NCBI GenBank assembly: GCA_913061235.1
Contig: CAJXTB010000002.1
Coordinates: 310,001-374,000 of the forward strand
Origin: an uncultured Pseudomonadota bacterium
Lineage (GTDB): Bacteria; Myxococcota_A; UBA796; GCA-2862545
Reading direction: 5' to 3'
DNA length: 64,000 nt
The first letter of the stretch is position 1. Each line of letters starts with the position of its first letter. Both the position numbers and the translations under genes were made by a program. The notes under the pieces are model-generated. The model was not told the origin of the DNA. It saw only the letters and a program-made list of their open reading frames with translations, and made no database searches. Positions 4,735 to 7,551 of this stretch are shown in pieces.

Positions 4735-4839
4735 GAGAGGGGTGGCGACGTGTCAATGAGCGGTTAAGCCCCGCCGCCCTTCACCTAGCCGGGGTTGACC
4801 GCGGCCCAGCCGTGCTTTGTTCCCCCGTCCGAGGATGCC

Positions 4840-5172
4840 ATGCCACCGGTGACTACGACTGACCTACTCCTTACCCTAGACGCGCCTGCGGCTGGGGGTT
4901 CCACAATGATTCAGAACATCGTTCTGATGGTTGCGGCGTTAGGCATTGGCTACTTTTTCTTTGTCCGACCCGCTCAGCAAGAGGGCAAAGCGAAAGAAGC
5001 CCTCGCGTCGTCGCTGGTCGCTGGAGACAAGGTGGTCACCGCAAGTGGGATGCATGGCGTCATTGCGGAAGTGAAAGCGGAAACTGTCCTTGTGGCCGTT
5101 GGTGACAACAAGGTCCGAATTGAGTTTGAGAAGTCGTCCATCCTGAGTCGTAACGACTCAGCGACGGCGTAG
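4840..5172 (+). CDS. yajC: Sec translocase accessory subunit YajC
   Basis: A small inner-membrane subunit that associates with SecDF in the holotranslocon. The 110 residues contain one transmembrane segment ('MIQNIVLMVAALGIGYFFF') followed by the typical 'VRPAQQEGK' and 'GDKVVTASGMHGVIAEV' signatures. I selected the ATG at 4840 because GAGG lies 5 bases upstream; a longer in-frame start at 4795 has no ribosome site. The N-terminal 20 residues before the membrane segment are slightly longer than in E. coli. The next gene, secD, begins 9 bases after the stop, giving the classic yajC-secD-secF order. Confidence 0.93.
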   Translation: MPPVTTTDLLLTLDAPAAGGSTMIQNIVLMVAALGIGYFFFVRPAQQEGKAKEALASSLVAGDKVVTASGMHGVIAEVKAETVLVAVGDNKVRIEFEKSSILSRNDSATA

Positions 5173-5181
5173 GGAGCCCTC

Positions 5182-7551
5182 TTGGAAGGCGTCAACTGGT
5201 TTCGAATGAGCATTATCGGCCTGCTGTTTGCAGTGTCCGCGTACGTGCTGTTGCCCACTGTTTTACAGGTCGACCCCGACCGCGGAGAGGAGGTCGAGTC
5301 CGGCCCGATCGAAGTGGAGTACGCGGCCCCTGACCTCAACCTGGAGCTGATTGTCTCCGGGGATGCTGCGGCTGCAGCAGAGGTCATTGGGCGTCGTCTC
5401 GCGGAGTTGGATGTCCCGACGGACCGCGTTCGCGAGAGCGGCGGTCGTGTTCAGGTTGTCCTGACCCCGGGTAGCTCCCGCGCAGACGTTGAGAGCGCAC
5501 TGCAGTGGACCGGCAAGGTCGGCGTGCACCGCTTGGCAGATGTCGCGGCAGCCATGGGCTGGGGCGAACCTGTCGAAGTCGACGGCTCGCTGAGCCCGAC
5601 ACTCGCGGGTCCACTCGCCGCTGTTGGCGGAACGGTGGCCTCCCTTGAAGGCGCCAACATTCCCGGCACCGTGGTCAGCATCACGACTGTGGCTCCGGCG
5701 CTCGGTGAGGGCCAGTCCCTCCGTGCAGCGCTGGCCGCACCTCGCGACTCGGACGAGCCGTTGGTGTTGAGCATGGACGGTCTGGCATTTGGCTTCGGTC
5801 TAGGCCGCAGCGAAATCTCCATTCTGCCATTCAGCGACCAGGGCGAGCTTCCTGCCGTTCTTCGCAGCGGTGAGCTGCCAAGCAGCATCGAGTTTGTGGA
5901 GATTGAAGAGGTTGCCTCCCAGCAAGAGATGATCGACGACTTGGACGTCGCCGAGAACAACATCCCTGCTTGGTTGCTGGCCATCCTCCCCGACACCCGC
6001 ATGAACTTGGGTATCGACCTTCAGGGTGGTCTGGACCTCACACTTCAAGTGGAGCTGGACCAAGCGGTCCTGTCACAAGCGTCACGCGACTCGTCCTTCA
6101 TGGCCGACCGCGCAGCTGAAGATGGCATCACGCTCACTGAAGTCAGCGTTGACTCGGTCGACCCCATCATCAAGGTCCACACCGACGGCAGCCTGTCGGA
6201 CCTTCAGCGTTGGGTCGCCGCGAACATGCGCGACTACGCGTACTCCGAGACCAACGAAGGTGCTCACTCCTTCGAGATGACCACCACGCGCGTCCGTGAA
6301 GTACACGAACAGAGCGTTGACCAGGTGCTTGAGACGCTGCGCAAGCGCGTGGATGCAACCGGCGTCAAGGAACCGGCCATCGTCAAGAAGAGTGGCGGCC
6401 GCATCAGCGTCCAGCTGCCCGGTAAGGTCGACCTCGACTCTGCCATTGACGCCATCGGCACCACCGCCATCCTCGAGTTCAACCTCGTCGACCCCGACTA
6501 CGACCTGCGTGCCCTTCGCTTGGCCATCCTACAAGCGAAAGAGGCCCTTCCCGAAGACCAGTTCCAGCATGACCCCACGCTGAACACTTGGTTGTCTCGC
6601 AACGGCCACGTGCCGAACGGCCGCAAGGTCATGTTCAAGTACGACGCCAACGAAGACACCAACATCGTTGAGCGCGACTTTGGCGAGCCACTTCAGGTCA
6701 TGAGCGAAGTCATGCTGACGGGTGCGGACATCAATGATGCTCGCGTGTCCTTCGACCGCAACGGTACCCCGGTGGTCCAGTTGGACCTCAAGCCGCGTGG
6801 CGGACAAGTCTTCTGCACCGTGACCCGCGAAAATGTGGGTGAGCGCTTTGCCATCGCCTTGGACGGCGAGGTCAGCAGCGCACCTTCCATTAACGAGAGC
6901 ATCTGCGGCGGCTCCGCCCAGATCACCATGGGCAATGGCATGGACGCGATGGGAGAGGCCAACAACTTGGCCCTCGTTCTTCGCACCGGCTCGCTCGACG
7001 CACCGGTCAGCATCGGAGAAATCCGAAATGTTGGCTCGCTTCTGGGGCAGGACGCCATCCGCTCGGGCTCGATTGCCACCGTCATTGGTAGCGTCGTCGT
7101 CCTGTTGTTCATGGTTCTCTGGTACCGCAAGGCAGGCATCTTGGCGGACATCGCCTTGGTGCTCAACGTCCTGCTGGTCCTCGCTACTCTGGCCATGTTC
7201 GGCGCCACATTGACCCTTCCGGGCATTGCTGGAATCGCACTGACCATCGGTATGGCCGTGGACGCCAACATCATCATCTACGAGCGCATTCGTGAAGAAC
7301 TGGCTCTCGGCCAGCTCGCTCGAAAGGCGGTAGACGCTGGATTCGACAAGGGCCTTGTCGCCGTCGTCGACGCCAACATCACCACCGCTATCGCCGGTAT
7401 CGTCTTGTACAGCTACGGAACGGGGCCCATCAAGGGCTTCGCCGTCACTCTGCTCATTGGCATTGGCACCACCCTCATCACGGCGCTGTTCGTGACCCGT
7501 ACGTTCATGGAGCTCGCCTCGCGCAGCTCCACAGCACGGCTTCGGCTCTAA
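5182..7551 (+). CDS. secD: Protein translocase subunit SecD with extra P1-like domain
   Basis: An inner-membrane subunit that uses the proton gradient to pull exported proteins out of SecYEG on the periplasmic side. At 789 residues it is well above the common 500-620. Segment 1 is a membrane helix (about 9-27). The family signature 'LGIDLQGGLDL' appears only at about 276; in typical SecD it follows TM1 directly. Residues 66-245 between them look like a second copy of the P1 base and head (compare 66-118 with 382-434, and 152-245 with 510-620). The C-terminal membrane block carries the conserved 'GMAVDANIIIYERIREE'. The TTG start at 5182 has AGGGAG upstream; an internal ATG at 5206 would cut into TM1. 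Confidence 0.95.
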   Translation: MEGVNWFRMSIIGLLFAVSAYVLLPTVLQVDPDRGEEVESGPIEVEYAAPDLNLELIVSGDAAAAAEVIGRRLAELDVPTDRVRESGGRVQVVLTPGSSRADVESALQWTGKVGVHRLADVAAAMGWGEPVEVDGSLSPTLAGPLAAVGGTVASLEGANIPGTVVSITTVAPALGEGQSLRAALAAPRDSDEPLVLSMDGLAFGFGLGRSEISILPFSDQGELPAVLRSGELPSSIEFVEIEEVASQQEMIDDLDVAENNIPAWLLAILPDTRMNLGIDLQGGLDLTLQVELDQAVLSQASRDSSFMADRAAEDGITLTEVSVDSVDPIIKVHTDGSLSDLQRWVAANMRDYAYSETNEGAHSFEMTTTRVREVHEQSVDQVLETLRKRVDATGVKEPAIVKKSGGRISVQLPGKVDLDSAIDAIGTTAILEFNLVDPDYDLRALRLAILQAKEALPEDQFQHDPTLNTWLSRNGHVPNGRKVMFKYDANEDTNIVERDFGEPLQVMSEVMLTGADINDARVSFDRNGTPVVQLDLKPRGGQVFCTVTRENVGERFAIALDGEVSSAPSINESICGGSAQITMGNGMDAMGEANNLALVLRTGSLDAPVSIGEIRNVGSLLGQDAIRSGSIATVIGSVVVLLFMVLWYRKAGILADIALVLNVLLVLATLAMFGATLTLPGIAGIALTIGMAVDANIIIYERIREELALGQLARKAVDAGFDKGLVAVVDANITTAIAGIVLYSYGTGPIKGFAVTLLIGIGTTLITALFVTRTFMELASRSSTARLRL

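Follow-up and report, generated by a model that had tools for sequence, protein, structure and literature searches.

The window, a stretch of 64,000 nucleotides, contains a secD gene in the usual operon order, queA-tgt-yajC-secD-secF (Table 1). The open reading frame at 5182-7551 is a genuine SecD, as the sequence-only reading of this DNA had stated: the curated NCBIfam model TIGR01129 matches residues 276-776 with 417 bits against a cut-off of 244.4. In the relatives of this gene, a start codon (GTG or TTG) stands at the matching place and is followed by VEGxYWFRL. The LGxDLxGG motif of SecD is present as LGIDLQGG at residues 276-283, the displaced position that had already been noticed; Pfam Sec_GG scored 16.5 on this protein, below its cut-off of 20.3. 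The canonical P1 domain is recognised by Pfam in both of its parts (SecD_1st, PF21760, at residues 379-437, E 1e-17; P1 head, PF22599, at residues 499-607, E 7.7e-31), and VIA matched residues 282-617 to 3aqo with a Z of 17.6. In the membrane part, a comparison of motifs equates D694, which lies within GMAVDANIIIYER, with D519 of E. coli SecD, the proton-path aspartate in TM4.

Table 1. Features of the yajC-secD-secF region, with positions in the window and residue numbers of SecD; P1' denotes the extra P1-like domain.
Feature	Residues	Positions	Strand	Basis
yajC		4795..5172	+	PF02699, E 1.7e-20
secD, TTG start	789 aa	5182..7551	+	ORF; TIGR01129; same start in relatives
TM1	2-27	5185..5262	+	Helix predicted, pLDDT 77-90; conserved, with VLLPT, in relatives
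P1' (extra P1-like domain)	47-240	5320..5901	+	Profile match, AF2 model, Foldseek, VIA
P1' base subdomain, beta-alpha-beta-beta-alpha-beta	53-117	5338..5532	+	Secondary structure, conservation, register
P1' reduced head: strands, short helix, LRSGELPSSI closing segment	166-238	5677..5895	+	Secondary structure, profile match
Acidic, probably flexible linker	241-262	5902..5967	+	pLDDT and composition
PAWLLAILPDTRMNLGIDLQGG segment, start of canonical SecD P1	263-283	5968..6030	+	62% mean identity within family
Canonical P1	276-622	6007..7047	+	Pfam; VIA match to 3aqo
TM2-TM6, including D694	623-782	7048..7527	+	Pfam PF02355; motif comparison
secF	422 aa	7564..8832	+	PF02355, E 1.1e-64; Sec_GG, E 3.4e-7

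The neighbouring SecF has a P4 region (from GxDFTGG to VGPxVG) of 160 aa, where E. coli and Bdellovibrionota have 86-87. Throughout the host's order this region measures about 159 aa, other Myxococcota have about 163, and it reads like two ferredoxin-like units.

The extension between TM1 and the canonical P1

Between TM1 and the PxWLxxLLPxxxxxLGxDLQGG segment (PAWLLAILPDTRMNLGIDLQGG in the host), the host SecD contains about 215 extra residues, which the sequence-only reading had taken for a duplicate of P1 because of parallel stretches in the two regions. These stretches do exist, 4-5 residues away from where they had been numbered (RRLAELDVP begins at 71 and LRKRVDATGV at 386), but within the single protein their similarity is marginal. 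With BLASTP, the extension matched the P1 of the same protein at 39% over 33 aa of the base part (E 0.004) and with an E of 14 in the head part, and Smith-Waterman comparison against shuffles gave z 1.2 (p 0.09). For the majority of family members taken singly, self-alignment gave no significant result, and single-sequence self-comparison by these two programs was set aside as insufficient proof of a repeat.

The similarity became firm with the relatives. HHalign comparison of a 17-member family alignment with P1 profiles gave the base part a score of 21.5, against a mean of 11.5 and a maximum of 19.3 in 300 column shuffles, and the head part one of 19.9, against a shuffle maximum of 18.4; the probabilities that HHalign attached to these scores were low (1.5-2%), since their calibration is meant for database searches, and it was the shuffle control that made the scores readable. 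The base and head matches came in the right order and in the register that had been proposed from the host sequence. At the level of the family, the similarity between the extension and P1 is well beyond chance. We also built a profile from 13 extension sequences, without any P1 sequence, and searched it with hmmsearch against 177,635 PDB sequences. Its best match was D. radiodurans SecDF (E 8.7e-6), where positions 21-201 of the extension correspond collinearly to 72-258 of the chain, spanning base and head together; P1 of T. thermophilus SecDF came next (E 0.004). In the alignment of the 13 relatives, R72-L73 of the extension are invariant, and they are aligned to R389-V390 of the true P1; R389 occurs in every sequence of the SecD alignment. 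Neither PF21760 and PF22599 nor PF13721 (SecD-TM1) matched the extension at E up to 10, and the curated Pfam and NCBIfam models were silent on the extension alone, except for TIGR01129 at an E of 0.055 over the base part.

A VIA search with the full model was uninformative on this region, as RND transporters filled the matches, and the extension was therefore modelled alone. The resulting AF2 model, built with 13 sequences, has a pLDDT of 83.6 and a pTM of 0.76, and its predicted topology starts with beta-alpha-beta-beta-alpha-beta; five or six strands follow, and after them come a short helix and the last strand. The seven best Foldseek matches of this model in the PDB are all SecDF (E 1.3e-7 to 1.7e-3), and the match that follows is a ferredoxin-like domain with an E of 0.0096 and about 60 residues covered. 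VIA aligned 166 residues of the model to residues 41-262 of 3aqo_C, an isolated P1, with a Z of 10.3 at 3.5 Å, and the non-SecDF chains among the matches listed were aligned over just 65-78 residues or so. Structure prediction thus gave a P1 fold in place of the unrelated fold that the sequence-only reading had named as the outcome contrary to it. Since the predicted fold matches P1 of SecDF over its full length, residues 47-240 or so constitute a complete but reduced P1; with both a base and a head in this region, the host SecD has two P1-related units in its TM1-TM2 loop. Taken together, the models and profiles show ahead of the normal P1 a second, reduced P1-like domain that is homologous to it and that we call P1', with a predicted ferredoxin-like base and a shortened head that is closed by the final strand of the base.

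P1' is similar to P1 of known SecDFs (T. thermophilus 3aqo/3aqp/5yhf; D. radiodurans 5xan; PF21760 + PF22599) in having a ferredoxin-like base followed by a strand-rich head, in its closing base strand and in the conserved Arg of the RL/RV motif, besides the significant profile and fold matches. It differs from them in several respects. The head is shortened and lacks the main helix: in both AF2 models, full-length and extension alone, nothing in P1' corresponds to the P1-head helix 538-550. The curated models do not recognise it. It is attached to TM1 and a linker, rather than to TM1 and TM2, and it is a second unit beside a normal P1. The linker has seven acidic and no basic residues, and its residues 242-257 have a pLDDT below 50 in the full-length AF2 model; this model was built with 20 sequences only and has a pTM of 0.58, so that the mutual arrangement of P1' and P1 is not readable from it.

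Distribution and descent of P1'

The extension was traced throughout the host's GTDB family, a family of Myxococcota-like, uncultured bacteria. P1' is present in all 17 complete SecDs of this family and also on fragments at contig ends in two more of its genomes, that is, in 19 of the 21 family genomes and in every SecD found there; the remaining two genomes are incomplete, and no SecD was found in them. An assembly or ORF artefact is ruled out by the 17 independent genomes, which belong to 14 genera. The length from TM1 to the GG motif varies within the family from 229 to 273 aa. Sister families of the same order, with about 40 genomes, did not show the extension, the matches beginning at residue 226 or later; the SecDs of these families are of the ordinary proteobacterial type, with open frames mostly of about 570-610 aa. 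Among 379 genomes of the phylum, strong matches occurred only in the host's family, although the profile is weak and may miss diverged cases. With the same weak profile, 294 genomes from the phylum of a Planctomycetota record yielded one 271-aa ORF that matches over the base only, and no SecD.

Inserts also occur at the same site of SecD elsewhere. In another family of the order, one SecD (L148, G029:C136:3000-5600) has an insert of about 75 aa that reads beta-alpha-beta-beta-alpha-beta, possibly a base without a head. The SecDs of two genomes from another family of the class (L137 and L138) carry about 145 aa of a different sequence there. The N-terminal region of E. coli SecD (PF13721, SecD-TM1) likewise has an insert of about 75 aa, from TM1 to PRWLAAI..LGLDLRGG; it is far smaller than P1', has no head and gave no match to the extension or P1 profiles. 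Therefore, the site accepts inserts, and that of the host's family is P1-like.

Within the family, mean pairwise identity is 28% in the base and 20% in the head of P1', compared with 64% and 57% in the base and head of the canonical P1 and 70% in TM2-6. These identities indicate that P1' evolves much faster than the true P1. In the tree, the extension forms one clade (support 100/99), and its sister pairs match those of the P1 part in the same proteins, so it entered SecD once and was inherited with the gene.

As to its source, P1' may derive, by fusion, from P1-like lipoproteins that these genomes encode as free-standing proteins rather than from SecD's own P1, a serious possibility to which we nevertheless give a little less than even weight. 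The extension profile matches such lipoproteins over nearly their full length (L122, E 3.6e-4; L123, E 6e-4). In the tree they are nearer to the extension than SecD P1 is, and the SecD P1s form a clade (100/100) that leaves the extension outside. However, the branches are long, which makes all of these placements uncertain; a p-AU of 0.12 does not reject a clade that joins the extension to the P1 of the same family, and grouping the extension with all SecD P1s gives an even slightly higher likelihood. The lipoproteins (L002, L008, L122 and L123) resemble P1' in combining a base half and a P1 head, in their case in one secreted module. Unlike P1', they are not part of a SecD, have no TM2-6 and, in those whose whole sequence was read, retain the head segment lost from P1'. 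Of the proposed duplication, then, the P1-like domain at residues 47-240 or so stands, and descent from the neighbouring P1 does not stand as worded, the tree not pairing the two. Nor do they look like equivalent units, considering the missing main helix of the extra head in the model and its much faster evolution. We would accordingly replace "duplicated" and "two P1 units" by a more cautious wording: a reduced, second P1-like domain, which may have come from duplication or fusion.

Possible roles of P1' beside the canonical motor

In known SecDF, the P1 head holds the substrate pocket and is thought to pull by a rigid-body movement driven by protons or cations; it also contacts PpiD (PMC11470409). 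The periplasmic domains of SecDF contact BAM (PMC7695460), and in E. coli partners such as PpiD/YfgM or BAM are touched by the periplasmic domains of SecD/SecDF (PMC11470409, PMC7695460).

The host's family retains a normal P1, the RND membrane part with its proton-path Asp, YajC and SecF. Because this canonical motor is intact and conserved, and P1' is fast-changing with a reduced head, we infer an accessory surface rather than a second driven gripper, and it seems fairly probable to us that P1' is an accessory, P1-like module of reduced form, added to a SecD motor that is otherwise normal. In this scheme, proton-driven pulling would fall to the normal P1 and the membrane domain, as it does in other SecDs, and P1' would be attached to the root of P1 as a module in the periplasm. 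Its most likely contribution would be a further surface close to the SecY exit that the emerging polypeptide, or partners such as PpiD/YfgM or BAM, could contact.

P1' might instead be a spacer or a tolerated insert, that is, a P1-like domain whose single entry into the loop did no harm and which has been kept only for its bulk or for height above the membrane. Its very fast sequence evolution and variable length would fit this idea, as would the unrelated or smaller inserts by which other families of the class and E. coli show that the site is tolerant. We regard it as improbable, since one would expect some of the lineages to have lost an insert that was neutral, yet P1' has persisted in every SecD found across the 14 genera with its P1 fold kept and with R72-L73 invariant.

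Still less probable is a motor with two hands, in which P1' would be a second substrate gripper that alternates or works in series with P1, in line with the changed grip on substrates that the sequence-only reading had put forward and that would be hypothetical here. P1' does have both P1 subdomains and sits in the same periplasmic loop, and it is the head that holds the substrate pocket in known SecDF. But the head of P1' is the part without the main helix in the model, and its mean identity in the family is only 20%. Moreover, P1' is joined through a low-confidence linker and not to two TM helices, so how it would couple directly to the proton cycle is hard to see. P1' is unlikely to be another gripper driven on a par with P1. 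To the same low degree we would credit a tandem-P1 motor in which P1' is active in pulling, or in passing the polypeptide from P1 to a partner; such a two-step ratchet is unknown in any SecDF. Finally, an independent ferredoxin-like domain with extra strands, resembling P1 by common topology, is very hard to uphold: base-like folds are common, with many ferredoxin-like VIA matches near Z 6-8, and no Pfam model matches the extension, but the profile search, which uses no structure, ranks P1 of SecDF first over both subdomains, and among the Foldseek and VIA matches listed only SecDF aligns over the full length.

The mechanism of P1, the mobile element that is believed to draw proteins out of SecY, is still debated. 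A SecD with a second P1-like domain is a real variant of this known machine, and the largely open-access literature that was searched gave no account of a P1 in duplicate or in tandem. Bacteria that retain the first P1 and have gained another P1-like unit offer a natural test of roles of P1 beyond that of a driven gripper. P1 is also seen here as a separable module, which occurs in free-standing and inserted forms.

Among the free-standing forms, two ORFs of 240-260 aa (L002 1501-2088, G000:C10:49457-50044; L008 1501-1998, G000:C14:19289-19786) read as secreted proteins or lipoproteins that combine a P1 base half with a P1 head, and similar ones are found in several genomes of the order. A different arrangement is seen at L124/L184 (G014:C404), where a 550-aa membrane protein that is not a SecD has a C-terminal P1-like domain (PF22599, E 8.3e-20).
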